Source of the DNA: Methanomassiliicoccus luminyensis B10
Lineage (GTDB): Archaea > Thermoplasmatota > Thermoplasmata > Methanomassiliicoccales > Methanomassiliicoccaceae
Direction of reading: 5' to 3'
Assembly (NCBI RefSeq): GCF_000308215.1
Contig: NZ_CAJE01000024.1
Location: 62,001 to 126,000, forward strand
DNA: 64,000 bases
Below the pieces are notes generated by a model. The model did no database searches and had not been told where the DNA came from. It saw only the letters and a list, made by a program, of their open reading frames with translations. Each line of letters begins with the position of its first letter. Position 1 is the first letter of the stretch. Below, piece by piece: positions 6,714-63,800 of the stretch. Both the position numbers and the translations under genes were made by a program.

Positions 6714-8105
6714 TCAGCCGCTGGAGGCGGCCCGGGGGATGCCGTACTTTCTCAGGACCTCCTGGCGGTACAGGGTGTTCCCGTGCACGCTGTTGATGTT
6801 GTACAGGCAGAACGGGATCAGCTTGCCGTCAGGGGTCACGGCGTGGATGCAGCAGCCCCTCAGCCGCTCCGTCTCCACGTTCCACACGTCCTGGAACGGC
6901 ATCGACGATATCGTCAGGTAGGAGGTCTTGGCCCTCTGGATGAACTCGTCCCAGGTCCCCTTCTCCTCCTTCGTGTCGCCTCCCACGCTCTCGTCGATGT
7001 ACCTCCACAGGTCGCTGATCTCCTGCCTCGTTTTCGCCGCGACGCAGCAGGTGTCCTTGGGCGGCCCCATGGCGCGGTGCGTCAGGGGGAAGAGGGAGCC
7101 GTCCTCCATGATTACCGACATTGACTTCACGTCGCAGTGGACGTTGGTGCATGACGTCGGTATGAAATTGTCCACGGTGAGCTCGCGGTTGGTCTGCCTC
7201 TCTATCTCCTTGAGGAGGTCTGGCAGCACCGTCCTGTTCGCGTCGGTCGGTATGATGGGATAGCGGCCGAAGTACGCGAGGGGCTGGAAGTGTATGCCCT
7301 TTACGGTGGGCACGTTCCTCTTGGCGAAGTTGATGATCTCCCCGATCTGGTCCATGTTGATATCCGGCGATACCACCGTGACCAGGGTGACGCCCATGCC
7401 CACCTCCTTGCAGTTCTCTATGGCCTGGACCTTGAGGGACAGCAGGTCCCGTCCGCAGGTCTTCCGGTACACCTCGGCGGTCAGCCCGTCGAACGAGAAG
7501 TACAGCGAGTCGACGCCGGCCTCCTTGCACCTCCGGAGGAACTCGATGTCCTGGGCGAACCGCACCCCGTTGGTGTTCACTTCGATGTAGTCGATGCCCA
7601 TGCTCTTGCCCAGGCGGACGATGTCCGGCAGGTCCTCGCGGACGGTGGGCTCGCCGCCGCTCAGCTGTATGCAGATGGGATGGTGAACATGCTCCAGAGC
7701 GGTCCGGTACATGCCCTCGATCTGCTCCATGGAGGGGTTGTACCTGGGCCCCTCAGAAGCGCTGGCGAAGCATATGGGGCACTTGAGGTTGCAGTCGCCG
7801 GTGACCTCCAGGACCACCAGGCAGGTGTGCTGCGAATGCTCTTCGCACAGTCCGCAGTCCAGCGGGCAGCGCACCTTGCCCTTCACCGCCACCTTCTCCG
7901 GCTTGGAGGGGACGCAGGCGTACTGCTTGAGCGACTTGTAGTCCTCGACCCCGCGCCAGATGAGCACCTTGAAATGACCGTGCTCGGGGCAGGTCTTCTC
8001 CAGGTAGATGTTATCGTTCTCGGCGATCTTCATTGCCGGAATGACCTTCAAACATTCCGGGCACAGGCTCTCCGTTTCGCCAATCTTCTCTTCCATGTGT
8101 TCCAC
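6714..8105 (-). CDS. Radical SAM protein, MJ0619-like (methyltransferase type)
   Basis: This 463-aa enzyme has an N-terminal Cys-rich part (CPECLKVIPAMK, CPEHGHF, CPLDCGLCEEH). The radical SAM site is CNLKCPICF (CxxxCxxC for the [4Fe-4S] cluster), followed by QLSGGEPTVREDLPD. A C-terminal region with further cysteines (TSCTNVHCD, CCIHAV) may hold extra clusters. This layout is that of MJ0619-type enzymes, which methylate a pterin precursor in methanogens. The exact substrate here is inferred. It lies downstream of the redox protein and MtaA-like gene on the same strand, but a hairpin with T-run lies between, so it may be transcribed separately. Confidence 0.8.
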   Translation of the reverse strand: MEHMEEKIGETESLCPECLKVIPAMKIAENDNIYLEKTCPEHGHFKVLIWRGVEDYKSLKQYACVPSKPEKVAVKGKVRCPLDCGLCEEHSQHTCLVVLEVTGDCNLKCPICFASASEGPRYNPSMEQIEGMYRTALEHVHHPICIQLSGGEPTVREDLPDIVRLGKSMGIDYIEVNTNGVRFAQDIEFLRRCKEAGVDSLYFSFDGLTAEVYRKTCGRDLLSLKVQAIENCKEVGMGVTLVTVVSPDINMDQIGEIINFAKRNVPTVKGIHFQPLAYFGRYPIIPTDANRTVLPDLLKEIERQTNRELTVDNFIPTSCTNVHCDVKSMSVIMEDGSLFPLTHRAMGPPKDTCCVAAKTRQEISDLWRYIDESVGGDTKEEKGTWDEFIQRAKTSYLTISSMPFQDVWNVETERLRGCCIHAVTPDGKLIPFCLYNINSVHGNTLYRQEVLRKYGIPRAASSG

Positions 8106-8178
8106 CGGATCGTTGCTATAAATGTGATGAAGCTATATCATCGAGCGCTCTGCCCGAAGTGGCCTCGCCCACAACAAG

Positions 8179-8214
8179 CAAAGAAATAAGATAAGAGCGG
8201 CCGCTCCCGCGGCC
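8179..8214 (-). terminator. Hairpin and T-run between redox-protein and radical SAM genes
   Basis: GGCCGC-TCCC-GCGGCC (8199-8214) is a perfect 6-bp stem. On the minus strand it is followed by TCTTATCTTATTTCTTT. It lies just after the stop of the redox-protein gene at 8224. Confidence 0.6.
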
Positions 8215-8223
8215 TAAGTGATT

Positions 8224-8664
8224 TTATGCCTTCTTCTTCTCGAACAGACCTTCGGCGGCAGCGATGGTCTTGGTGGCGAGGTACTCCTCGACCCATGAGT
8301 CGCCGCACTTCGGGCAGACGATGGCGGGCCCGGACCTGGTGATGCCCATATAGGTCATGTTGGCGGTGCCCTGCTGCGCCTGCTCGTTGCAGTGCTTGCA
8401 GGTCCACTCGGACATCTCCGGCTCGTCGGTAGTCTTCACGATGTCGTTCAGCTGCATCCGGTGGGAGTAGGCCGACTCGACCTTTCCCTTGTCGTCGAAC
8501 AGGGCGTAAACGGTCACGTCCCCCACGCGCTTCTTGGCGAGGTTCTTGCCGTTGTTGGTGAGCATCCGCCCGCCGTTGTTCTTCACGACATCAGCGATGT
8601 CCGCCTCCTTCAGGCCCCTCTTTCCCAGCAGCTCCTTGACTTCATCAGTAAATGTTGCGTCCAT
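8224..8664 (-). CDS. Small CxxC redox/zinc-ribbon protein with Cys-pair C-terminal domain
   Basis: This 146-aa protein has an N-terminal helical domain (TFTDEVKELLGKRGLKEADIADVVKNN). Its second half has two CxxC pairs: WTCKHCNEQ and IVCPKCGDSW. Proteins of this shape (DVU_1557-like redox proteins) occur beside radical SAM enzymes and methyltransferases. They may pass electrons or hold a metal; that resemblance is from memory and not certain. Its start lies nine bases after the stop of the upstream MtaA-like gene, so the two form an operon. Confidence 0.65.
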   Translation of the reverse strand: MDATFTDEVKELLGKRGLKEADIADVVKNNGGRMLTNNGKNLAKKRVGDVTVYALFDDKGKVESAYSHRMQLNDIVKTTDEPEMSEWTCKHCNEQAQQGTANMTYMGITRSGPAIVCPKCGDSWVEEYLATKTIAAAEGLFEKKKA

Positions 8665-8673
8665 GTTCTCACC

Positions 8674-9789
8674 TCACCATTTCCCGTAGGTACCGAAGTC
8701 CTTGGCAGCCTGGGTCATGGCCAGGAAGTTGCCCGGGTGCGTGTAGGGCGGGCATTCGCAAGCGCAGCCTAGGATGTAGCCGCGGGGGCTGTCGCGTCCG
8801 GCGATGATGGACTCCTTGGACTGGTCATAGACGGCCTTGGGGTTGGGGTTGATCATCAGCTTAGTGTCGACCGAGCCCATGATGGTGGCCTTGTTCCCAT
8901 AGTCCTTCTTGAGCAGCTCGGTGGGGAAGACATCCTTTCCCTTGTATCCGATATGGAACACCGTGAAGGGGGACCAGATAAGGTTCTGGAACTCCTTGTA
9001 GGAGGTATCGTGGTTGCCGCAGCAGTGATAGAATATCTGCGGGCCGCCGCCGCCCCTGAACACCTTGTTCACGTAGCGCCTCATGTTGGCCACGGAGTAG
9101 TCGCGCACAGCCTCGTCGGAGAAGATATCGTTGTTGGCAAGGACCGAGCCGACCACGAGCATGGCCATGCCGTAGTCCTTGGCGGTGCACAGCGCGCCGT
9201 TGGCGGCGCAGTCGGTGAACTTCTCCACCAGCTTGTGGGCCGCGTCCGGCTCCATGAAGGTCCACATGACGAAGTTCTCCACGCCGACCATTTCTGCGGC
9301 CTCGCCGACCGGGTCGAAGGCGTAGGAGATCGGCACAAAGGTCTGGGGGAGGTTCTTCTGGACGTACGAGTACAGCCTCTGGTACTGCGGGTACGTCACC
9401 CCCTTCCTGAGGTCCTCCTCGGACGGTACCTCCAGCTTGTCGACTTCGCTGGGGTCGCTGATGATAGGCTTCTCTACGATTGGCGGCAAAGTGTCCTTCT
9501 GGATCAGATTGCACCCGAACTCCTTTAGCCAGGGGGTCGAGTAGAACCAGTGCGACACCGACAGCAGGTCGTACAGCTGGTATATGTATGCCAGGCAGTG
9601 TATGCCCAGTTCCGGCTTCTCGTAGAAGTCCCTGATCGTGTACCCACATGATACCGCGGCGTGCGACAGCATGATCGGGTCGACGTCTATTCTATCTTGT
9701 GGGTTATCCACAAAAGGGCTGGCAAAACGCTTAGTGGCTTTGCCGTGCCACTCCATGTCGTATGGCGGAAACAAATCTTCGTAGCCCAT
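8674..9789 (-). CDS. Uroporphyrinogen decarboxylase-family methylcobamide:thiol methyltransferase (MtaA/MtbA-like)
   Basis: This 371-aa TIM-barrel protein belongs to the URO-D superfamily, but its C-terminal half has the zinc site of methylcobamide:CoM methyltransferases. His255 and Cys257 lie in the H-x-C-G-N motif (FYHCCGNHD), with Cys342/344/346 in GCACECPPYTHPGNF. Such enzymes move a methyl group between a corrinoid protein and a zinc-bound thiol such as coenzyme M. The acceptor here is not known. It is the first gene of a minus-strand operon with the redox protein and is divergent from the HemW-like gene. The shared promoter holds two palindromic operators (9845-9902), so an Lrp regulator probably controls it. 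Confidence 0.8.
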   Translation of the reverse strand: MGYEDLFPPYDMEWHGKATKRFASPFVDNPQDRIDVDPIMLSHAAVSCGYTIRDFYEKPELGIHCLAYIYQLYDLLSVSHWFYSTPWLKEFGCNLIQKDTLPPIVEKPIISDPSEVDKLEVPSEEDLRKGVTYPQYQRLYSYVQKNLPQTFVPISYAFDPVGEAAEMVGVENFVMWTFMEPDAAHKLVEKFTDCAANGALCTAKDYGMAMLVVGSVLANNDIFSDEAVRDYSVANMRRYVNKVFRGGGGPQIFYHCCGNHDTSYKEFQNLIWSPFTVFHIGYKGKDVFPTELLKKDYGNKATIMGSVDTKLMINPNPKAVYDQSKESIIAGRDSPRGYILGCACECPPYTHPGNFLAMTQAAKDFGTYGKW

Positions 9790-9844
9790 TGAATCCCTGA
9801 AAGGGCACCGAATTTGCGCCTATTTAATCATTTGTCGCGAAATT

Positions 9845-9902
9845 ATGTAACAATGTTGCATAAGAGGTTCTTTATATTGTTAATGTGCAACATTGTTGCA
9901 CA
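9845..9902. promoter_or_regulatory. Two palindromic operators in a divergent promoter
   Basis: TGTGCAACATTGTTGCACA (9884-9902) is a perfect 19-bp palindrome. ATGTAACAATGTTGCAT (9845-9861) is a copy with one arm mismatch. Their centres are 40 bp apart, about four helical turns, and a TATA-like TTTATATTG (9871-9879) lies between them. The same GCAAC...GTTGC core occurs before the nearby Lrp gene (11845-11857), which makes that protein the likely binder. Confidence 0.75.
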
Positions 9903-10005
9903 TTTTTGGGTAAAATTGCCTCTCGATCGCCCGTTCCATCTGATTCCGTACCATCGAGTAAAATATGAAATGCGCCGATGAGCGGGGCAAATCAGAGGTT
10001 AGAAC

Positions 10006-11360: not shown

Positions 11361-11840
11361 TCACTTCGGCGGGGCCAGCCGGGACCTTATGATGTCCATG
11401 GGAGCGTCCGGGTTGATGGGAGTGCTGTCTATGAGGATGTCCACTTCCACGTTGTGCACGTTGGGGATCTTCAGGATGCGCTCCTGGATGAGGCCGTAGA
11501 GTGCGTCCACGCTGCTGGTGTAGACATCGCATACCAGGGCGTGGTCCCCGAAGGCGCGCGCCACCGTCACGATCTCGGGGCTTTTTCTCAGCTCCTCGAT
11601 CACCGAGTTCAGCGCCGAGCCGGCCACCTGGAGGGATATGATCCCCCTCATCAGCCCGACCCTCGAGGGGTTCAGGACGATGGTGTACCCCGAGATGTAG
11701 CCGTCGGCGTCCATCTTGGCCAGCCTGCGGCTTATGGTGGCCTTGGACACCCCCAGCTCCTTGGCGATGTTGCCGAGGCTCTCCCGGGAGTTGTCCCTCA
11801 GTATCTTTAGAATGCGCAGGTCTATTTCGTCCATGCTCAT
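11361..11840 (-). CDS. Lrp/AsnC family transcriptional regulator
   Basis: This 159-aa protein has an N-terminal helix-turn-helix (LGNIAKELGVSKATISRRLAKM, residues about 21-42) and a C-terminal RAM ligand-binding domain with GISLQVAG-like and FGDHALVCDVYTSS strands. Starts at 11840 (MSMDEID) or 11834 are both possible. The perfect repeat GCAAC-GAT-GTTGC lies five bases upstream of its own start. The same core stands twice in the divergent promoter 1.5 kb away. Autoregulation plus control of the methyltransferase and HemW-like genes is the natural reading. The effector is not known. Confidence 0.92.
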   Translation of the reverse strand: MSMDEIDLRILKILRDNSRESLGNIAKELGVSKATISRRLAKMDADGYISGYTIVLNPSRVGLMRGIISLQVAGSALNSVIEELRKSPEIVTVARAFGDHALVCDVYTSSVDALYGLIQERILKIPNVHNVEVDILIDSTPINPDAPMDIIRSRLAPPK

Positions 11841-11857: not shown

Positions 11858-12017
11858 GGTTTTTTCTGACATATGGCGATATCGTTGCGTGAACACCTCA
11901 TATTTCATTCATTATTAATCATTGTCGGTATATCCAGACTTGTCAATAGTTAAATGACGGCGCGGCCAGGACGATGCGGATGAAAAAGATCGATCAAGAG
12001 GGCCGCTAGACCCCTGT

Positions 12018-12069: not shown

Positions 12070-12708
12070 TTACTTCAGAAGTGCGCTGATGGTCTTGACG
12101 GACTCGACAGCGTCGGGAGCCCAGGCCGTTCCGATCTGGTCGGCGAACTCCTTCGAGGTGGCGCCTCCGCCGATGATGGTCTTCACCTTCCCCTTCAGGT
12201 TCTCCTCCGCCAGCTGCCTCTCGATCTCCTTCATGCCCGGCAGGGTGGGGGTCATTAGGGTGGAGGTGGCGATGATCTGGGCGTTCTCGGCCTTGGCCTT
12301 CTCGATGATCTTCTTAATTGGCACGTCCTTGCCGAGGTCGTAGATGGTGAGGCCGGCGCCGGTCAGCATGGCCTTCACGATGTTCTTGCCGATGTCGTGG
12401 ACATCGCCCTCGATGACGCTGAGAACGACCTTTCCGGGCTGGGCGGCGTTGGTGTCGACCTTCAGCTGCGGGAGCACTACGTCCAGGACCTGGTACATGG
12501 TCTGGGCGGCCATCAGGACCTGGGGCAGGAAGTACTGACGGGTCTCGTACTTCTGGCCGACGGTCGCCATGGCGCTGCTCAGGTAGTTGAAGATGATCTC
12601 GCGGGGGTCCATTCCCGCGGCGAGCGCCTGTTCCGCCAAGGGCTTTGCTTCCTTGATCTTCCCGCCGATCACAACGTCCATTATTTTCTTGGCTAAGTCA
12701 TCCGACAT
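12070..12708 (-). CDS. Corrinoid (B12-binding) methyl-carrier protein
   Basis: This 212-aa protein has the two-domain layout of MtaC/MtbC/MttC: an N-terminal helical cap (residues 1-88, with MDPREIIFNYLSSAM and PQVLMAAQTMYQ) and a Rossmann B12 domain. The cobalt ligand His104 lies in GDVHDIGKNIV. A later SxL (STLMTPT) and GG (IGGGATSKEF) contact the nucleotide tail. It would carry a methyl group between a substrate-specific methyltransferase and the MtaA-like enzyme. No substrate methyltransferase is adjacent. Its start follows a good AGGAGG site. Its upstream region holds three TTAAC-N4-GTTAA palindromes shared with sulfur genes elsewhere in the window, which hints at methylated sulfur compounds or methionine as its context. 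Confidence 0.92.
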   Translation of the reverse strand: MSDDLAKKIMDVVIGGKIKEAKPLAEQALAAGMDPREIIFNYLSSAMATVGQKYETRQYFLPQVLMAAQTMYQVLDVVLPQLKVDTNAAQPGKVVLSVIEGDVHDIGKNIVKAMLTGAGLTIYDLGKDVPIKKIIEKAKAENAQIIATSTLMTPTLPGMKEIERQLAEENLKGKVKTIIGGGATSKEFADQIGTAWAPDAVESVKTISALLK

Positions 12709-12843
12709 TTTATTGAATCCTCCTAATTATTTATTGTTAGCAATTCAACAATCCGGGTGGTTAATAAATCATCGCACGGATGTACTGTTTTAACATACGT
12801 TTAGTTGAGATGCGTGTCAATGTCTGGCACAGCTATTTTTCGA

Positions 12844-12899
12844 TTAACTATAGTTATTAACATTAGTTAAGCCATGGATTTATTATTAACAATCGTTAC
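12844..12899. promoter_or_regulatory. Three TTAAC-N4-GTTAA palindromes upstream of the corrinoid gene
   Basis: Three copies stand at 12844-12857 (TTAACtataGTTAt), 12857-12870 (TTAACattaGTTAA, perfect) and 12886-12899 (TTAACaatcGTTAC). They are spaced 13 and 29 bp apart and lie 136-191 bp upstream of the corrinoid start. The same palindrome precedes several sulfur amino acid genes in this window. Confidence 0.7.
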
Positions 12900-12980: not shown

Positions 12981-14480
12981 TCAGTTCGAGGCCGCGGCCG
13001 GCCTCTCCGCCCTTTCGCCAGGGGACCGGTCCGCGTCGTACTGCTCTCTCCGATCGATGATGGGCTGGTGCTTGGGCTCGAAGGGGGCGCATCCCACGTC
13101 GAGCATCTCCACCATCAGGGGAGCGATGAGGTCGTTCTGCCGGGCGTCCTTGATCTCGTCCAGTCCCTCCAGCCCCGCGATGATCTTCTTCCTTCCCTCT
13201 TCCTTGTCCCCCTTGAACTCGACCCGGAAGGTGAGTATGTCGCGATAGTCGTCGCGGTCCAGCACCAGATCGTAGCTCAGCACTCCCGGGACCGCCAGGA
13301 CCACCTCGTCGAACAGCAGCGGGTAGATCTTCTGGCCGTACCCTATCTTGGTCTGGGCGTCCATGCGGCCCATTATCTTGCCGATCTTGATGCCGGTCCC
13401 GAACCCGCATTTGCACGGCGGCTCGATGATGCAGCTCAGGTCCCTGGTGCGGTAGCGGATGAGGGGCGTGCCCTCCATGGACAGGGACGTCCACAGCATC
13501 TCCCCCTCCTCTCTTTCTCCCAGTTGCTTCCCGGTGGCGGGGTCCACCACCTCCACGATGAAGTCGGCGTTGTTGACGTGGAGGCCGTCGTACGCCCCGC
13601 ACTCTATCGAGCTGGCCAGCCCCATCTCGGTCATGCCGTACTGCGCGACGACCTTGCACCCCCAGATGGAGATGAGCTCCCTGCGCATAGCCTCCGGCAG
13701 CGGCTCGGCGGAACAGATGATCGCCTTTATCCCCATCGAGCGCAGGTCGTGCTTGTCCTTGGCCAGGACGCTGATGCGGTAGATGAAGGAGGTCAGCCCG
13801 ATCATCATGGTGGTGTGGTTCTCCTTCATGAGCTTTACCTGCTCGTCCACGTCCGCCGTGCTTGCCACCACGGAGCTGAAGCCGGCGATCTTGCAGGCCC
13901 CGTCGAGCATGAGGCTGGGGTCCCAGGCGGCCACCGCGGGGAACATGATCTGCAAGGTATCGCCGTCGGTCATCCCCTGCGCCTTCAGGGCGGCGGCGAT
14001 GGAGTCGATGATGTTCAGCACATCGTTCCTGGTATAGAACAGCCGCTTCCTGGTCCCTGACGTTCCTGAGGTGGTGAAGGCCCGCATGACCTTGCTCTGC
14101 GATGCGCAGAGGAACTGGAACGGTTCGGCAGCCAGCTCCGAGGGGTCGGTGACGGGGATCTTCCCCATGTCCTTGATCGTCCTGATGTCCGAAGGCCTGA
14201 TGCCAGCGTCATTGAGCACCTTGCGATAATGGTAGGAGTTCTCGCTCACGTACTCTAGCATCTTGCGGAGCTTGTGCAGCTGGTACTCTGTAACGTCCTG
14301 GTTCTTGATCTCGCCCAGCTCGTCCCTCCCGATGGCCTCGCGGAACTCCTTGGACCCCTTGAACTCCGCACGGATCTTGTTGTGTATCCATATCTCCAGC
14401 GCGTCGTCGCTCCCTTCGATCTTGCGGGAGGACAGCTTGCGCCGGGCCACCGCCATCTTGACATTGTCCAGCAGCTGCAT
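12981..14480 (-). CDS. Phenylacetate-CoA ligase-like AMP-forming ligase (PaaK-like)
   Basis: This 499-aa protein is of the adenylate-forming superfamily. The P-loop-like motif TTSGTSGTRKRLFYT (about residues 150-165), VAQYGMTEMG and the RYRTRDLSCI motif are all present. A Cys-rich KCGFGTG stretch follows, as in PaaK zinc-type ligases. The C-terminal lid domain ends in an unstructured acidic/Arg tail. It would activate a carboxylate with ATP and pass it to CoA. Substrate unknown; PaaK-like ligases recur in clusters with corrinoid methyltransferases. It is divergent from the ArsA-like gene. TTAACAATCG is present in the short shared promoter (14535-14544). Confidence 0.82.
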   Translation of the reverse strand: MQLLDNVKMAVARRKLSSRKIEGSDDALEIWIHNKIRAEFKGSKEFREAIGRDELGEIKNQDVTEYQLHKLRKMLEYVSENSYHYRKVLNDAGIRPSDIRTIKDMGKIPVTDPSELAAEPFQFLCASQSKVMRAFTTSGTSGTRKRLFYTRNDVLNIIDSIAAALKAQGMTDGDTLQIMFPAVAAWDPSLMLDGACKIAGFSSVVASTADVDEQVKLMKENHTTMMIGLTSFIYRISVLAKDKHDLRSMGIKAIICSAEPLPEAMRRELISIWGCKVVAQYGMTEMGLASSIECGAYDGLHVNNADFIVEVVDPATGKQLGEREEGEMLWTSLSMEGTPLIRYRTRDLSCIIEPPCKCGFGTGIKIGKIMGRMDAQTKIGYGQKIYPLLFDEVVLAVPGVLSYDLVLDRDDYRDILTFRVEFKGDKEEGRKKIIAGLEGLDEIKDARQNDLIAPLMVEMLDVGCAPFEPKHQPIIDRREQYDADRSPGERAERPAAASN

Positions 14481-28497: not shown

Positions 28498-28542
28498 TTT
28501 ATAAACACATAGGCTTTTCAAAATTAAATTAACAATAGTGAA
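28498..28542 (+). promoter_or_regulatory. metY promoter with TTAAC-N4-GTGAA operator
   Basis: A TATA box TTTATAAACA (28498-28507) is followed by TTAACAATAGTGAA (28529-28542), a copy of the TTAAC-N4-GTTAA palindrome with one mismatch. It sits where transcription should begin, so a bound protein would repress. Confidence 0.6.
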
Positions 28543-28635: not shown

Positions 28636-29931
28636 ATGACTCAGAGTAAGAAGAGCTTGGGAACGCTCGCCATCCACGCGGGACAGACCGTGGACCCGAC
28701 CACCGGATCGAGGGCCGTTCCGATCTATCAGACCACGTCCTACGTGTTCAAGAACACCGTGCATGCCGAGAACTTGTTCGGCCTCAAGGAGCTGGGGAAC
28801 ATCTATTCCCGCATCATGAACCCCACCACGGACGTGTTCGAGCAGAGGATCGCCGCCATCGAGGGCGGGACCGCGGGGCTGGCCACCGCTTCAGGACAAG
28901 CGGCGATCTCATACGCCCTCCTGGGCATCACCAGGCCCGGGGACGAGATCGTGTCGGCCGACAACCTGTACGGAGGGACCTACGAGCTGTTCCATTACAC
29001 CTTCCCCAAGCTGGGCAGGACCGTGAGGTTCGTGCCCTCCAATGATCTTGAGGCTTACGAGAAGACCATCAACGACAAGACCAAAGCGATCTATGTGGAG
29101 TCGATCGGGAACCCCAAGCTGGACACCCCCGACTTTGATGCCATATCCAAGATAGCCCACGACCACAACATCCCCCTGGTGGTCGACAACACCACCGGCG
29201 TCGGCCTGGTCGCCCCCATAGAGCACGGGGCCGATATCGTAGTGCTGTCCGCCACCAAGTACGTTGGGGGGCACGGTGCCGCCATTGGCGGAGCGATCGT
29301 CGATTCAGGCAAGTTCAACTGGGGCAACGGCAAGTTCCCCGAGTTCACCGAGCCCGACCCCGGCTATCACGGCCTGGTCTATTGGGACACCTTCAAGGAC
29401 TTCGCCGGCCTGGGCAACGTGGCCCTGGCGTTCAAGCTCAGGGTCAGCCTGCTGAGGGATACCGGCGCGACCCTCGCCCCCTTCCACGCTTGGCTCTTCC
29501 TGCTGGGCCTGGAGACCCTGCACCTCCGGGTGCAGAGACATTCCGAGAACGCCCTGGCCGTGGCGAAGTTCCTGAAGAGCCACCCCAAGGTCGCATGGGT
29601 CAGCTACCCCGGGCTGGAGGACGATCCGAACCACGCCAACACCGAGAAGTACCTCAAGGGAGGCTACGGCCCCCTGGTGGGCTTCGGGGTCAAGGGCGGT
29701 GAGGCGGCCAGCAGGAAGACCATCGACAGCCTCAAGCTGTTCTCGAACCTGGCCAACATCGGCGACTCCAAGAGCCTGGTCATCCACCCGGCGTCGACGA
29801 CCCACCAGCAGCTGACCGTGGAGGAGCAGAAGGCCACGGGCGTGACAGCAGACTTTATCCGCTTGGCGATTGGTACCGAGGGCATCGATGACATCATCGC
29901 TGACCTCGACCAGGCGCTCAAAGGGGTGTAA
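28636..29931 (+). CDS. metY: O-acetylhomoserine aminocarboxypropyltransferase / sulfhydrylase
   Basis: This 431-aa PLP enzyme of the Cys/Met metabolism family joins sulfide or methanethiol with O-acetylhomoserine to give homocysteine or methionine. The N-terminus [32 protein letters not shown] and the PLP lysine in [18 protein letters not shown] are diagnostic of MetY, as is its length (longer than MetB). A strong AAAGGAGG precedes the ATG. The next gene, metX, makes its substrate. With methanethiol as substrate it would produce methionine directly. Confidence 0.93.
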
Positions 29932-34661: not shown

Positions 34662-35678
34662 TCACTGGGTCGAGATGACGACCGGCACCTGCTCCTTCCC
34701 GATGCGGAAGGAGTCGATGATGTCGTGGCCGGACGGCAGCGCCTCGATGACCGATTCTCCGTGAGCGGACCCGATCCTGATCGCCACGGCCCTGCCCTCG
34801 TGGTCCGAGTACCTCGCCACCATCCCGGAGGCCCTGCTCAGCAGCTCGGCGTCGTCGCCCTCGCACAGGCACACCGGGCCCGGGACCGAGACCGGCTCCA
34901 GAACGATGAAGCCGTCCCCGGCCAGCGTCCGCAGGCGAGCGTTCTCCTTCTCGTCCCTGCCGATGACCACCTTGTGGCCGTCCACGCGGAAGTGCCGCCC
35001 CACTTTCAGTATGGCCACGTCGCGGGCGGTGAGGTTGTCGGGGTTGTGCTCCAAGAAGTCGGACAGCTTGGCGGCGAACTCCTGGGAGGTCAGGAGGCAC
35101 CCCCCGGCCGGGCAGGGATAATCGACGAGCCCTTTCTCTTCGGCCAGCTTTATCTGGGGCTTCCGGCTGCGACCGGATATCGCCAGCAGCGCCTCGCGGT
35201 CCACCCAGCCTTCCTTCTCTGCCTCTGTAGGGGGGAGCAGCTTGGCACTGAGGGGCCGCAGCAGCTTGCCCTCCAGGCCCGCCTCCCTCTCGATGAGCGC
35301 CATGGTGTTGCGGTGCTGGCTCATGGGCCTCTGCCCCACCACTTCGCCGGTGAACAGGAACTTGGCCCCCATATCGTCGGCGATCTGTTTCGCCCTCTTG
35401 AGCATGAATATGCGGCAGTCGATGCAGGGGTTCATCCCCGAGCCGCGGCCGAACTTGGGGTCCCTTACGATGTCCAGGTACTCCTGGCCCTTGGGGACGC
35501 TCTTGAACTCGATGCCCAGCTTCTCGGCGAGCTCGGCGGCATGGCAGCAGCCTCCCGAGTCACACTGGCAGAACGGCGAGGTGAACTTGAGAGCGACGAC
35601 GGTGATGCCTTGCTCCATCATGACCTTGACCGCCAGTGAGCTGTCCAGGCCTCCCGAGAGCAATCCTATGGCGAGCAT
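34662..35678 (-). CDS. PP-loop ATPase, tRNA/thiolation-related (ThiI/MnmA-like)
   Basis: This 338-aa protein opens with the PP-loop GLLSGGLDSSLAVKVM, which binds ATP and adenylates a substrate for sulfur transfer. Cysteine-rich segments follow: FCQCDSGGCCHAAE, NPCIDCRIFML and CPAGGCLL. The C-terminal third has a separate beta-rich domain (FIVLEPVSVPGPVCLCEGDDAELL). It resembles archaeal MnmA/ThiI-like enzymes that thiolate tRNA, but no THUMP domain is present, so the substrate is inferred. A variant sulfur-regulon palindrome overlaps its start codon. The TGA stop is followed in frame by 34 further protein-like codons. Confidence 0.8.
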   Translation of the reverse strand: MLAIGLLSGGLDSSLAVKVMMEQGITVVALKFTSPFCQCDSGGCCHAAELAEKLGIEFKSVPKGQEYLDIVRDPKFGRGSGMNPCIDCRIFMLKRAKQIADDMGAKFLFTGEVVGQRPMSQHRNTMALIEREAGLEGKLLRPLSAKLLPPTEAEKEGWVDREALLAISGRSRKPQIKLAEEKGLVDYPCPAGGCLLTSQEFAAKLSDFLEHNPDNLTARDVAILKVGRHFRVDGHKVVIGRDEKENARLRTLAGDGFIVLEPVSVPGPVCLCEGDDAELLSRASGMVARYSDHEGRAVAIRIGSAHGESVIEALPSGHDIIDSFRIGKEQVPVVISTQ

Positions 35679-37854: not shown

Positions 37855-39513
37855 TTACCTGATGTCCACGAAGGGCACGATGTCGCAGCAGCCGCAGCGG
37901 TTGCACATTGTCTCGAAGGTCAGGGTGCTGAGCCCATGTCTCTCCAGGATGTCCTTCTGCGCCCGGACCAGGCGGAGAAGGCGGTCCTTGTCCACTGGCC
38001 TGACGCTACCGATCTCGCTGGCAAGGGCGTTCCTGTTCATGTTGTTGGTCCGGAGGGCGCGAAGAGTGGCCACGCTCCCGATCTCGGCCAGGTGCTCCAC
38101 GCCCTGGAGGACGTTCTCGTCACTTTCCCCCAGCCCGATGATGATATTGGAGGTCACCCTGCCTCTTCCGAACACCTCCACGGCGTGCTCGATGGACCGC
38201 AGGATGAGGTCGTAGTCCTTCTTTCCGCACACCTTCTCGAAGATGCCGCGGTCGTAGGTCTCGATGTTCAGCTTGATCTCGTCGGCGCCAGCTTCCTTCA
38301 GGAGGTCGATCTGCTCCATTTCCGAGATATACGGCTCCACGCCAATGGTGACGGACGGGAGCGCCTCCCTTACTCCGCGGACCACTTCCGCGATGCGCTC
38401 TACCGTCCGTTCAGCGGTGTCCGGCACGCCCGACGTGATGGCCACCGCGTCGAAGCCGACCTTGTGGTGGGCCTCGACGATCATCCGCATCACCTTCTCA
38501 GGGGTGTGCCCCTTTTCCTGGCTCTCCTCCAGAAGTGGGGACGCGCAGAAGCTGCACCCGTAGATGCACCGGTTGTCCAGGTTGAAGAACGCCTGCTCGG
38601 GGGCGTGGAACACCACCGGCTCGATCTTCACCTCCTCGATGAACACCTCCCCGTCCCGGCACAGGGAGTACGTCCCGCCGTTCGGCACCAGCTCGAAGTC
38701 CCCCCGGTCGCGGGATACGGCCTTCTTGACCCTGGTGCCCTCGAACGCCAGCACTATGCCGGTGCTCCCGGCCCCGGGGCCGGCGGTCGAGCAGCTGGCC
38801 CGGAACGGCAGTTCCATGTCCTGGGGTATCTTCACGGGGCCAGATAGCAGAAGCGTGGCCTTCTTGTCAGCGGTGTGCATGATCCTCTCCTCGATGTCGT
38901 TGAGCCTGGAGTCCAGCCCGGCGATGGCCCGGCGGACCTCGTCCAGCGTATGCGCCAGCGGGTCAGGCAAGGGAGCTACGGTAGCTTCCGGGGCCTCCTT
39001 GCGCCCGTCTACCTTGATGACCTTGCCCGGCACTCCCACCACGGTGCTGTTGGGGGGCACGTCCTTCACCACCACCGACCCGGCGCCGATCTTGGAGCCG
39101 GCCCCGATGATGATGTTGCCCAGCACGGTGGCGTTGGAGCCGATGACCACATCGTTGCCGATGGTGGGATGCCTCTTCTCTTTCGATGTGCTCACCCCTC
39201 CCAGCGTCACCCCCTGGAAGATGGATACGTTGTCCCCGATCTCGGCCGTTTCCCCGATGACCACGCCGGTGGCGTGGTCGATGAAGAACCCCTTGCCGAT
39301 CTTGGCCCCGGGGTGGATGTCCGTGCCCGTCAGCACCCGTGATGCGTAGTTGATGGCTCTGGCCAGCTTGTACTGTCCCTTCTCGTATAGGCGGTGGGAC
39401 GTCCGATACAGGAAGATGGCGTGAAGGCCGGGGCTGAACATGAGCGCCTCGCCGAACGACCTGGGCGCGGGATCTCTCTCCAGAACGGTGTTGACGTCAT
39501 CCTTCCAGCTCAT
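37855..39513 (-). CDS. Serine O-acetyltransferase fused to a radical SAM (biotin synthase-related) domain
   Basis: This single open frame of 552 aa joins two enzymes. Residues 1 to about 175 are an EpsC-type serine acetyltransferase: [19 protein letters not shown], then left-handed beta-helix hexapeptides [24 protein letters not shown] and [20 protein letters not shown] linker with a helical segment follows. Residues about 300-552 are a radical SAM domain with [24 protein letters not shown] and a C-terminal [12 protein letters not shown], resembling the biotin-synthase-related group (COG2516). The first half makes O-acetylserine; the second has no known substrate. GGAGG precedes ATG 39513. 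A sulfur-regulon palindrome lies about 100 bp upstream. Confidence 0.85.
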
Positions 39514-39608
39514 GAGCGTTCCTCCGGGCCGCCGCCCCGCGAGCTCCACGGCCCCGACCCGATGGCCGCCATCGATGCTAGAGGCAAATGACCGGGACGT
39601 ATTTCTTT

Positions 39609-39622
39609 TTAACGATTGTGAA
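39609..39622. promoter_or_regulatory. TTAAC-N4-GTGAA palindrome before the cysE fusion gene
   Basis: TTAACGATTGTGAA is a one-mismatch copy of the TTAAC-N4-GTTAA motif, 96 bp upstream of the start. On the minus strand it abuts an A/T-rich TTAAAAAGAAATA that could be the TATA box. Confidence 0.55.
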
Positions 39623-43180: not shown

Positions 43181-43557
43181 CTGATGCCCCAATTATTTGC
43201 ACCTAAGGAATCTCGTATAGTTATGCTTTTCTCGAAGCAATCCTGGTATTAACAAACGAACCGGGCATGACCTGGCCGCCAGCTAGACCATGTGACCGGA
43301 CCGATTCCGAATTGCATATCTATCCCTTCCGCGCAACGGCCCGGCGGGGGCGGAGGGAGAAAGCCTCTCGAACCCCACCCTCAGGCACCGTCAGGGTGCT
43401 CGCATGCTACCGGACCGACGGTCCGTCCAGGAATATTCCGTTCGAGCGGGTCCAGGCTGGCCTGGCGCCTTATCATGCCTTTTCAAGGCCTTCATGCGCC
43501 TTTCTGCCAACATTTTATTCTATTATGAATCTCCCACATCACAGTCATTAAATAACT
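43181..43557. other. Intergenic stretch without a recognisable gene
   Basis: About 380 bp between the small hypothetical gene and the XRE-CBS promoter. Overlapping plus-strand ORFs (43267-43551 and others) look random and end in the AT-rich promoter. No repeats seen. Confidence 0.4.
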
Positions 43558-43571
43558 TAACAATCGTTATA
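43558..43571. promoter_or_regulatory. TTAAC-N4-GTTAT palindrome before the XRE-CBS gene
   Basis: TTAACAATCGTTAT is a near-perfect copy of the sulfur-regulon palindrome, 102 bp upstream of the TTG start. Autoregulation of the regulator is the simplest reading. Confidence 0.6.
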
Positions 43572-43673: not shown

Positions 43674-44255
43674 TTGAAAGCGGTACGATTCCCGGAAGCG
43701 ACACAGATCAGGCAGATGCGGCACTCCCTCGGCATCACCCAGTCAGCCCTGGCCAAGAGGTCCGGGGTAAGCCAATCCACCATCGCCAAGATCGAGAGGT
43801 GCAAGATCAAGGGCAGCTACCCCGAGGTGGTGAAGCTCTTCGAGGCTTTGGAGGACGAGGCGGAGACGCGGCTGACCAAGGTCCGCTTGCGCGACATCAG
43901 CACCAAGCAGGTCATCGGGCTCCAGGCCGAGGACCCGGTCAGGAGGGCCTCCGAGCTGATGAGGGAGCATGACATCTCCCAGATGCCGGTGTTCGAGGGC
44001 GACCGAGTGGTCGGCAGCCTCTGCGACAAGACCATCCTGGAGCTGGTGATGGCCGGCATGAAGATCGAGGAGGTCGCCCGCAGGCCCATACGGTCCGTCA
44101 TGGACGGCCCCTTCCCCGTGGTGGACGAGGACGTAGAGAAGGAGTCGGTGGAATCGCTGATTCTCGCCGAGCACGCCGTTCTCACCACCCGCAACGGGAA
44201 GATAACCGGCATAGTCACGGGAGCGGACCTCATCCAGATCGACTGGTCGATCTGA
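43674..44255 (+). CDS. XRE-family HTH regulator with CBS pair
   Basis: This 193-aa protein has an N-terminal XRE helix-turn-helix (IRQMRHSLGITQSALAKRSGVSQSTIAKIERCKIKG). Two CBS domains follow (LRDISTKQVIGLQAEDPVRRASELMREHDISQMPVF and RSVMDGPFPVVDEDVEKESVESL). CBS pairs bind adenosyl ligands such as AMP, S-adenosylmethionine or methylthioadenosine. A DNA-binding protein that senses such a ligand fits control of sulfur amino acid genes. The TTG start has AGGTGAG upstream and gives the natural N-terminus. A shared palindrome stands in its own promoter. It is convergent with cysK. Confidence 0.88.
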   Translation: MKAVRFPEATQIRQMRHSLGITQSALAKRSGVSQSTIAKIERCKIKGSYPEVVKLFEALEDEAETRLTKVRLRDISTKQVIGLQAEDPVRRASELMREHDISQMPVFEGDRVVGSLCDKTILELVMAGMKIEEVARRPIRSVMDGPFPVVDEDVEKESVESLILAEHAVLTTRNGKITGIVTGADLIQIDWSI

Positions 44256-61208: not shown

Positions 61209-62363
61209 TCACCTCGCCTTTTCCAAAGCCTGGGCCAGGTCCTCGATGAGATCCTCCTTGTTCTCGACCCCCACGGACAGCCGTACGAGGCCGTCGGCCA
61301 GCCCGCAACGCAGCCTTTCCTCGCGCGGGATGGAGGCATGGGTCATGCAGGAGGGGCATTCGATGAGCGATTCCACCCCGCCCAGGCTCTCCGCCAGGGC
61401 GAAGATCTTGGTGGACTCGACCACCTTCACGGGGTCCAGGCCGTCCTTGAGCTCGAACGACACCATGCCCGAGAACCCACTCATCTGCCTCTTGGCGAGT
61501 TCGTGCTGGGGATGGCTCCTGAGCCCCGGATAGTTGACCCTCCGCACGAGATCGTGGCCTTCCAGGAACTCCGCCACCGCCAGGGCGTTCTCCTGGTGGC
61601 ACTTCATCCTCAGGTGCAGGGACTTGATGCCCCGCAGCGTCAGGTAGCATTCCTGAGGTCCGGGCACCGCGCCGACCGCGTTCTGGTAGAACCTCAGCCT
61701 CTCCACCAGATCGGGGTCCTTGGCCACCGCGCATCCTCCGATGACGTCGGAGTGACCGCCGATGTACTTGGTGGTGGAGTGGACCACCAGGTCCGCCCCG
61801 AGGTCCAGGGGCCTCTGGAAGTACGGGCTGGCGAAGGTGTTGTCCACCACCACTAAAGTCTCCCTGTTGGCGGCATGCGCCTTCCCGGCCAGCTCCTTGA
61901 TGTCGTACACCTTCAGCAGCGGGTTGGTGGGGCTCTCTATCCACATCATGTCGGTCATTTCGGCCAGTGACCGGTCCACCGCTCCAGGGTCCCCGAGGTC
62001 TACGAAGTCGAACCCCAGGCCGAACTGGGAGAAGCACTTCTTGAACAGGCGGAACGTCCCTCCGTAGAGGTCGTTGCACACCACCACCCGGCCTCCCGAG
62101 CTGAGAAGGAACATCATGGTGGCCTCGGCGGCCAGACCGGAAGCGAAGGCCAGTGCGCCCATCCCTCCCTCTATAGCTGCCAACCGCTCTTCCAGCGCCC
62201 TCCTGGTGGGATTGCCGGAGCGGGAGTACTCGTAGCCGTTGGTCGGTCGATCGACCTTCTTCCTGGCAAAGGTGGAGGCCATGTGTATGGGGACCGCCAC
62301 GTCCCCATTGGCCTGCTTCTCCGGCTCCTCGCCCGCGTGCACCGCTTCCGTCTCGAACCTCAT
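61209..62363 (-). CDS. Cystathionine gamma-synthase/lyase family PLP enzyme, second copy
   Basis: This 384-aa protein is of the same family as the gene at 31456, with FETEAVHAGEEPEKQANGD, YEYSRSGNPTRRALEERLA, WIESPTNPLLKVYD and the PLP lysine in VVHSTTKYIGGHSDVIGG. Its ATG overlaps the stop of the upstream CBS-like gene (ATGA), with GGAGGG before it. With a beta-synthase encoded just before, it is best read as cystathionine gamma-lyase of reverse transsulfuration (homocysteine to cysteine). Confidence 0.92.
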   Translation of the reverse strand: MRFETEAVHAGEEPEKQANGDVAVPIHMASTFARKKVDRPTNGYEYSRSGNPTRRALEERLAAIEGGMGALAFASGLAAEATMMFLLSSGGRVVVCNDLYGGTFRLFKKCFSQFGLGFDFVDLGDPGAVDRSLAEMTDMMWIESPTNPLLKVYDIKELAGKAHAANRETLVVVDNTFASPYFQRPLDLGADLVVHSTTKYIGGHSDVIGGCAVAKDPDLVERLRFYQNAVGAVPGPQECYLTLRGIKSLHLRMKCHQENALAVAEFLEGHDLVRRVNYPGLRSHPQHELAKRQMSGFSGMVSFELKDGLDPVKVVESTKIFALAESLGGVESLIECPSCMTHASIPREERLRCGLADGLVRLSVGVENKEDLIEDLAQALEKAR

Positions 62364-63343
62364 TCGATCCCTCCTTCCAGGAAGCCGTGCTCCCTCATCC
62401 ACCGGTCGTTGTAGATCTTGCTGAGATACTTGGCCCCGCCGTCGGGGAGGACCACCACGACCACGTCCTGCGGTCCCAGGTCCCGGGCCGCCTGCAGGGC
62501 CACGTGCACTGCCGCCCCCGACGAGCCGCCGGCGAAGATGCCCTCTTCCCGGGCGAGGCGGCGCGTCATCAGGAACGCCTCCTTGTCGCTGAACTGGATG
62601 ACGTCGTCGATGTACTCGAAGTGGACGTTCCTGCACAGGATATCCTCGCCCACTCCCTCCACGAAGTAGCTGTGGGCTTCCGGGAACTTCCCGGTCTTGA
62701 AGTAGTGATAGTACACCGAGCCGTGGGGGTCGGCGGCGATGACCTTGACCGACGGGCTGACCTCCTTGAGATATTTGGCGATGCCCGAGACGGTCCCCCC
62801 GGTGCCGACCCCGGCGACGAAGTGGGTGATCTTCCCCTCGGTCTGTTCCCAGATCTCCGGGCCGGTGGTGCGGTAGTGGGCGTCGGTGTTGGCGGGGTTG
62901 TTGAGCTGGTCGATGTATAGCGCGTCCGGCTTTTCCTCCGCCATCCTGCGCGCTACCGAGTAGTAGCTGCGGGGATCATCGGCGGAGACCTTGGTCGGGG
63001 TCACGACGGTGTGCGCCCCGAACGCGCGCAGAGCATCGATCTTCTCTTGGCTCATCTTGTCGGGGATGCTGAACACGCTGCGATATCCCTTCACCGCGCT
63101 GACCATGGCCAGCCCCATCCCGGTGTTCCCGGAGGTGCTTTCCACCACCGTGCCGCCGGGGACGAGGCGGCCCCTTCTCTCAGCCTCCTCGATCATGGCC
63201 AGGGCGATGCGGTCCTTGGCGCTTCCGCCGGGGTTCATGAACTCAAGCTTGGCAAGCACTGTCGCTTCGAGGCCTTCGGTGACCTGGTTCAGCCGCACCA
63301 GAGGGGTCCTCCCGATGGCCTGCAGAATATTCTCATACCACAT
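62360..63343 (-). CDS. Cystathionine beta-synthase-like PLP enzyme
   Basis: This 327-aa enzyme of the CysK/CBS fold II family has AIGRTPLVRLNQVTEGLEATV, the PLP lysine in NPGGSAKDRIALAM, ESTSGNTGMGLAMVS and FVAGVGTGGTVSGIAKYL. The EGVGEDI motif near residue 230 and the lack of CBS regulatory domains match short cystathionine beta-synthases. It would condense serine (or O-acetylserine) with homocysteine. Its promoter holds a perfect TTAAC-N4-GTTAA palindrome. It is first in a two-gene operon with the lyase. Confidence 0.9.
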   Translation of the reverse strand: MWYENILQAIGRTPLVRLNQVTEGLEATVLAKLEFMNPGGSAKDRIALAMIEEAERRGRLVPGGTVVESTSGNTGMGLAMVSAVKGYRSVFSIPDKMSQEKIDALRAFGAHTVVTPTKVSADDPRSYYSVARRMAEEKPDALYIDQLNNPANTDAHYRTTGPEIWEQTEGKITHFVAGVGTGGTVSGIAKYLKEVSPSVKVIAADPHGSVYYHYFKTGKFPEAHSYFVEGVGEDILCRNVHFEYIDDVIQFSDKEAFLMTRRLAREEGIFAGGSSGAAVHVALQAARDLGPQDVVVVVLPDGGAKYLSKIYNDRWMREHGFLEGGIE

Positions 63344-63513: not shown

Positions 63514-63538
63514 GTTATTTAAGTTTAACTATTGTTAA
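63514..63538 (-). promoter_or_regulatory. Promoter of the CBS operon with perfect TTAAC-N4-GTTAA site
   Basis: TTAACTATTGTTAA (63525-63538) is a perfect copy of the palindrome. Just downstream on the minus strand is a TATA-like CTTAAATAAC (63514-63523). The site lies at the TFB-recognition position, where binding could either block or recruit the transcription factors. Confidence 0.65.
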
Positions 63539-63800
63539 CTATGGTCAGTACGTAGGAACCCGCTCGAGACCCGTCCCAGCTCGCACGTTTACAGAAAGAA
63601 GTTCTTTGGTCATCACGAGGTCGGAGATCACCGTGGACGGTGGCAGCGACAAGCTTCTTTCATAGTGTCCGCGCTCCTCGTTGCCGCGATCGCGGCCTGG
63701 CCTAAAAAGAAATGACCTTCCGAAAGAGCTGGGGCGGCCCCCGGTCGGGAGCGGGCGCTCGCGGCATTCCGGAAGGAGATATGGTAGAGCGGACGATGGC
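63539..63800. other. Intergenic stretch without a recognisable gene
   Basis: About 260 bp with no credible ORF between the CBS promoter and the MoaD-like gene. A plus-strand ORF (63712-63924) is antisense to the MoaD-like gene and not protein-like. Confidence 0.4.

Follow-up and report, generated by a model that had tools for sequence, protein, structure and literature searches.

The gene for a 212-residue corrinoid protein in this genome (2.62 Mb, 26 contigs) lies downstream of a 56-bp array of three palindromes of the kind that precedes sulfur-assimilation genes elsewhere in the genome, and sequence evidence supports its tie to sulfur control well. We read the array, with moderate confidence, as a putative multi-site operator for the regulator of a sulfur-assimilation regulon. 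Our literature search found no description of the TTAAC-N4-GTTAA motif of this regulon, and what appears to be new here is an archaeal sulfur regulon, marked by a motif not found described, that would include a corrinoid methyl carrier.

A palindrome array upstream of the corrinoid gene

Three palindromes of the TTAAC-N4-GTTA type fill positions 12844–12899 of the window (the whole stretch of 64,000 nucleotides analysed, 61% GC) exactly, the first two having one base in common. The array lies 136–191 bp upstream of the corrinoid ATG, in a gap of 272 bp that separates this gene from the end of an AMP-ligase-like gene (12981–14480). The gap also holds a weaker fourth palindrome with one mismatch to the consensus and no AT centre. 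The features, with distances given from the ATG, are as follows.

12070–12708, minus strand: corrinoid protein, 212 aa, B12-binding_2 and B12-binding domains, DxHxxG motif
12763–12768, minus strand: candidate TATA element TTTATT of the corrinoid gene, at −60, assigned by inspection
12790–12803, minus strand: weaker fourth palindrome, TTAACATACGTTTA (gene strand TAAACGTATGTTAA), at −95
12844–12857, minus strand: palindrome 1, TTAACTATAGTTAT (gene strand ATAACTATAGTTAA), at −149, matrix score 17.4
12857–12870, minus strand: palindrome 2, TTAACATTAGTTAA (gene strand TTAACTAATGTTAA), perfect, at −162, score 16.1
12886–12899, minus strand: palindrome 3, TTAACAATCGTTAC (gene strand GTAACGATTGTTAA), at −191, score 18.6

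Allowing up to two mismatches, TTAACNNNNGTTAA matches 16 times in the whole window against 3.85 expected, and no shuffle got to 16. The intergenic region holds four sites where dinucleotide shuffles predict 0.03–0.06, and under all nine settings the count observed in the gap, or in its AT-rich part, was reached by none of 5,000 such shuffles. Exact coordinates and shuffles thus agree with the original prediction of three sulfur-type palindromes within 56 bp before the corrinoid gene. Its further claim, that this gene has the most sites in the window, also holds: there is a single strong site before each of metY, cysE and the HTH-CBS regulator gene, and an overlapping pair before the beta-synthase gene.

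The motif-marked regulon and its candidate regulator

Scanning the genome by pattern and by stretches, we found 51 sites per strand for TTAACNNNNGTKAA with one mismatch, against 27–31 for the reversed control; the regulon has at least the members listed here. Sites with an AT centre that match exactly or almost exactly precede metY (O-acetylhomoserine sulfhydrylase type), a cysE–radical SAM fusion gene, the HTH-CBS regulator gene, sufC–sufB, nifS, genes for a ThiF protein, an AhpC-type protein and a variant radical SAM protein, and a CBS-type beta-synthase gene followed by a Cys/Met PLP enzyme gene. Genes for a taurine-type (tauC-type) ABC permease and ATPase have two sites, and a homocysteine-biosynthesis (HcyBio) gene has a weaker one. 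The operator is also present upstream of an mtsA/mtsB-like pair encoding an MtaA/CmuA-family enzyme and an MtaC-like corrinoid protein (C12:549–551 kb), and a corrinoid/URO-D pair on contig 15 (C15:69 kb) is preceded by a strong site and two weaker ones. These genes were not picked beforehand, and judged by their sequences they are a real sulfur-assimilation set. The remaining sites in the window, including one that makes a ThiI/NFACT-R_2-like gene a likely further member, are listed below.

11940–11953, minus strand: palindrome-like site TTAACTATTGACAA before the Lrp gene, at −113, score 12.6
28529–28542, plus strand: palindrome before the metY-type gene (28636–29931), 3′ of the TATA-like TTTATAAA
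35677–35690, minus strand: palindrome overlapping the start of the ThiI/NFACT-R_2-like gene (34662–35678), score 17.6
39609–39622, minus strand: palindrome before the cysE–radical SAM fusion gene (37855–39549)
43557–43570, plus strand: palindrome before the HTH-CBS regulator gene (likely start 43674, end 44255)
63525–63548, minus strand: two overlapping palindromes before the beta-synthase (62360–63343) and Cys/Met PLP enzyme (61209–62636) genes

The SurR regulon of Thermococcales is likewise archaeal, concerns sulfur-related genes and uses short dyads, sometimes several per promoter. SurR recognizes GTTn3AAC(n5GTT) and targets S0 reduction and hydrogenases (PMC12162507), whereas here TTAAC-N4-GTTAA stands before cysteine, methionine and Fe–S assembly genes. 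We rejected membership in the SurR regulon: the sites conform neither to GTTn3AACn5GTT nor to the short GTTn3AAC, apart from an incidental GTT-ATT-AAC at the junction of palindromes 1 and 2, and the SurR motif is absent from sites elsewhere in the regulon, such as TTAACAATAGTGAA.

We then asked how the corrinoid gene compares with the remaining B12-binding genes of the genome, assigning methylamine loci by sequence recognition. No palindrome was found upstream of the methylamine-system-like corrinoid loci, of two methanol (mtaCB-like) loci or of a second mtsA/mtsB-like pair (L237:2313–4246). A third mtaC has an ambiguous site 436 bp upstream that may instead serve the divergent HcyBio gene. 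By its upstream sequence, the window corrinoid gene groups with the sulfur genes and not with the methanol and methylamine genes.

Conservation was assessed with a weight matrix built from the sites of this genome, all corrinoid promoters being excluded except the mtsA-like one. A score of at least 8 was reached by 23 of the 35 orthologous corrinoid promoters (2.9 in locally shuffled sequence) and a score of at least 12 by 9 (0.5 when shuffled), counts that are not probabilities, as the relatives are statistically non-independent. The positive promoters fall in four families. Control promoters stay near background: sufC 2/28, HTH-CBS 0/29, PdeM 0/19 and Lrp 1/29, the last being this genome's own. 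Exact sites are rare in relatives (0–2 per genome), yet both of those in genome G015 precede sulfur genes (sufC; cysK–metY) and one of the two in G005 precedes cysK–cysE. The link between motif and sulfur thus appears to extend to two further genera, the large regulon being seen in this genome only.

The position of the sites bears on the direction of control. By eye, the palindrome lies just 3′ of a visible TATA-like element at metY, at the ThiF gene and at cysK of G015, and it abuts such an element from upstream at nifS and the beta-synthase gene; sites at or adjoining the TATA or start-site region suggest repression at most of the sulfur genes whose TATA is visible. At the window corrinoid gene, all palindromes lie upstream of the likely TATA, whose location is that of the conserved TATA in orthologous corrinoid promoters, and in those promoters the palindrome is likewise upstream of the conserved TATA region (also by eye). 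This placement suggests a different effect at corrinoid genes, such as activation or cooperative control. Operators upstream of the TATA would nevertheless fit a corrinoid gene that sulfur shortage switches on as well as one that it switches off. Lying 95–191 bp 5′ of the ATG, the operators could also serve an unrecognised start, a point that we count against our main reading.

The best candidate for the regulator adjoins the corrinoid gene.

11361–11840, minus strand: Lrp/AsnC-family regulator gene; PF13404, PF13412 and PF01037 over cut-off

The product combines an AsnC-type HTH with an AsnC ligand-binding domain and has solved archaeal Lrp structures among its relatives. Of 147 genomes, 56 have orthologs of both Lrp and the corrinoid protein, 15 have just one of the two and 76 have neither; in relatives the two are frequently on the same contig, with Lrp near the corrinoid cluster. 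The clade of G016, G018 and G020 has lost both Lrp and the palindrome, the only clear match of this kind; the motif is absent from the Lrp promoters of relatives, and across genomes Lrp and the palindrome are weakly linked. We dropped Lrp as a proven regulator, since the motif stands in its own promoter here only and losses clearly match in one clade; its binding to the palindromes is a prediction, and our nomination of it is tentative, with the balance tilted against it. The HTH-CBS protein (43674–44255) is less likely to be the regulator, because its orthologs lack the motif (no palindrome in any of 29 promoters) and because G015 has palindromes before cysK–metY and sufC yet no match to the protein.

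Recent duplication of a corrinoid protein found across the order

The corrinoid protein matches the Pfam B12-binding_2 and B12-binding models over cut-off and has DVHDIG at residue 102. Against TIGR02370 (methyltransferase cognate corrinoid protein) it scores 194.4 bits, under the curated cut-off of 215.3; it misses formal membership and would nonetheless be expected to work like this family. Scores for the MtbC and MtaC equivalogs (159.8 and 117–126 bits) lie below their curated cut-offs of 350 and 420–450. By sequence, the nearest solved structures are the trimethylamine and monomethylamine corrinoid proteins, MetH being more distant, and the closest titled relatives are from Methanomassiliicoccales.

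A second copy in the genome, at C12:117.6 kb, is 77% identical and keeps the order-wide (ancestral) neighbourhood of PdeM, corrinoid protein, a LigD or hydantoinase-like protein, MtaA and URO-D, to which the cluster in relatives adds RamA and an AmmeMemoRadiSam enzyme. MtaA of this cluster scores above the cut-off of NCBIfam PRK06252, and RamA matches TIGR04270 with 725 bits. In a tree, the window copy falls within the order-wide corrinoid family as a recent duplicate, species-specific among the sampled genomes, with a branch length of 0.28 versus 0.12 for the C12 copy. The window protein is thus a direct paralog of a family whose relatives keep the palindromes, but it has moved, lacks MtaA and RamA neighbours and has more palindromes. 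Its neighbours are the Lrp gene and the AMP ligase; an MtaA/CmuA-like gene (8674–9789) is separate. Two observations count against our main reading: the URO-D partners lie outside the operon of the window copy, and no palindrome precedes the C12 copy.

Corrinoid promoters across the order (L057–L105) share a conserved element, GGATGGTNNATCCATCCATAAAAGRRTTTATWAT (GGATGG...CCATCCATAAAAG), at the likely TATA. This GGATGG...CCATCC element is partly retained at the C12 copy and lost at the window copy. As the window copy keeps palindromes without the element and the C12 copy lacks the palindrome, the ancestral control may have been split between the two copies.

Two further observations concern the surrounding sequence. 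A minus-strand run at 6714–9789 encodes a TrsS-type radical SAM (seleno)protein, a DUF7479 protein and a His-Cys-Cys MtaA/CmuA-like URO-D protein, and the divergent URO-D/HemN-like promoter at 9790–10005 carries a different palindrome, of the TGCAACATTGTTGCA type.

Proposed methyl transfer in a sulfur setting

We propose that the regulator of the sulfur-assimilation regulon acts on the multi-site operator at 12844–12899 and thereby controls a recent duplicate of the order-wide methyl-carrying corrinoid protein, whose partners would be MtaA, URO-D-family methyltransferases and the RamA activase. Within the sulfur response, the protein would ferry methyl groups between methylated thiols and coenzyme M, co-regulated alongside the mtsA/mtsB-like pair and the second corrinoid/URO-D pair. 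We give this account, taken whole, an even chance. The array, the regulon, the conservation of the palindrome and the duplication can be read from the sequences directly; that methyl transfer by the window protein is tuned to sulfur supply is probable, and a methyl-sulfur substrate is a possibility that falls slightly short of an even chance.

In the URO-D family, enzymes whose zinc site is His-Cys-Cys work on sulfur or selenium compounds (PMC10418091). An H-x-C motif with a later Cys is present in MtaA (C12), in the window URO-D protein and in the contig-15 URO-D protein; no H-x-C is seen in the URO-D protein encoded by the order-wide cluster. These His-Cys-Cys residues and the presence of an mtsA/mtsB-like pair in the regulon favour methylated-thiol chemistry, for which the sdm/mlp systems set a precedent in chalcogen supply through demethylation. 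MtsA/MtsB is the dimethylsulfide:CoM methyltransferase of Methanosarcina and is reported in Methanomassiliicoccales. The likeness lies in the combination of an MtaA/CmuA-family enzyme with a corrinoid protein and in the operator that the mtsA/mtsB-like pair shares, but the window protein is 32% identical to the corrinoid protein of that pair, and at the window locus the corrinoid gene has no MtsA-type MtaA/CmuA gene beside it or in its operon.

A simpler possibility, to which we give a distinctly smaller chance, is that the corrinoid/MtaA route responds to sulfur supply with no methylated-sulfur substrate involved, the duplicate providing extra MtaA-directed methyl-carrying capacity. Coenzymes M and B are thiols, which would give such tuning its reason. 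The order-wide relative is linked to MtaA (PRK06252) and RamA (TIGR04270) and to no sulfur-specific enzyme, and the operators upstream of the likely TATA fit as well; on the other hand, the operator is common to the mtsA/mtsB-like pair and to the contig-15 pair of a corrinoid protein and a His-Cys-Cys URO-D protein, and the canonical methanol and methylamine carriers stand outside the regulon. The same evidence bears on the original prediction of a sulfur setting rather than methanol or methylamines. Its regulatory side stands, given an operator of the sulfur-regulon type that methanol and methylamine corrinoid genes mostly lack and a similar palindrome kept before the orthologous gene in relatives; the MtaA/RamA association of the order-wide relative weighs against its chemical side.

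It is unlikely, though precedented in the mlp/sdm clusters of Methanococcus voltae and clostridia (PMC10418091), that the corrinoid protein receives methyl groups which a URO-D enzyme removes from dimethyl selenide or sulfide, freeing the chalcogen for biosynthesis. Type 1 mlp and M. voltae sdm loci resemble the present one in pairing a corrinoid protein with URO-D S/Se-methyltransferases that serve chalcogen supply (PMC10418091), and genes for a TrsS radical SAM (seleno)protein and a His-Cys-Cys MtaA/CmuA-like URO-D protein lie about 2–6 kb from the corrinoid gene. A Type 1 mlp locus comprises at least Mlp2 and Mlp3, a corrinoid protein and RamA, whereas the genes scanned at 4.7–15.5 kb include one URO-D gene and no Ram/RACE gene; the defining Mlp2/Mlp3 pair is missing from the window cluster, no RamA gene adjoins the corrinoid gene, and the window URO-D gene has no palindrome.

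Methionine synthesis, which the original prediction had offered as one sulfur setting, is disfavoured, and we consider it quite unlikely that the corrinoid protein supplies the methyl groups that a core methionine synthase would pass to homocysteine. Corrinoid proteins are presumed to serve such synthases in vivo (PMC7857596), and the operator is common to metY and the beta-synthase/Cys-Met enzyme pair. However, the likely MesB (L110:3157–4179) lies beside cooC and cdhDE and has no palindrome, in agreement with work that predicts CoFeSP as the methyl donor for MesB beside cdhDE and credits Methanomassiliicoccales with MesB and no other core synthase (PMC7857596). The MesB call is based on residues, size and position; searches of Pfam, NCBIfam and PDB gave it no support. 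With this gene resembling MesB, we rejected the idea that the corrinoid protein fills the gap of a missing methionine synthase. Profile searches of the genome with PF01717 and PF02574 gave no match, but PF01717 misses Methanosarcina acetivorans in controls and is therefore an unreliable test for all core synthases; a search with it alone would wrongly report a genome without methionine synthase. Near the corrinoid genes of relatives, the weak PF01717 matches that were mapped are MtaA. On the same contig, L110:10405–13989 is an acetyl-CoA synthase beta-subunit-like frame with an apparent intein (CVPAGEDVMLGDGSF ... INGIVVKN/C), its last part seemingly out of frame.

That the array is a remnant without present regulatory effect at a diverging, little-used duplicate is very improbable: the copy is species-specific among sampled genomes and has the longer branch, but it keeps DxHxxG and a full-length frame, has a good ribosome site and carries four palindromes whose half-sites are conserved, all of which point to selection.

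Returning to the methylated-thiol reading, a broader form of it is conceivable, if doubtful: the order-wide corrinoid/MtaA/URO-D module would carry out assimilatory demethylation of methylated thiols (or selenides) under an Lrp-family master regulator, with co-control of cysteine, methionine and Fe–S assembly genes by the motif, and here the carrier would have been duplicated and its control split.

Methanomassiliicoccales live in guts and sediments, and the literature searched held no description of sulfur control in them. With some dozen sites, the regulon that the motif marks is open to testing, and it draws attention to a conserved corrinoid protein whose substrate merits biochemical work. 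The regulon suggests a link between sulfur supply and the methyl transfer that feeds methane formation in Methanomassiliicoccales.
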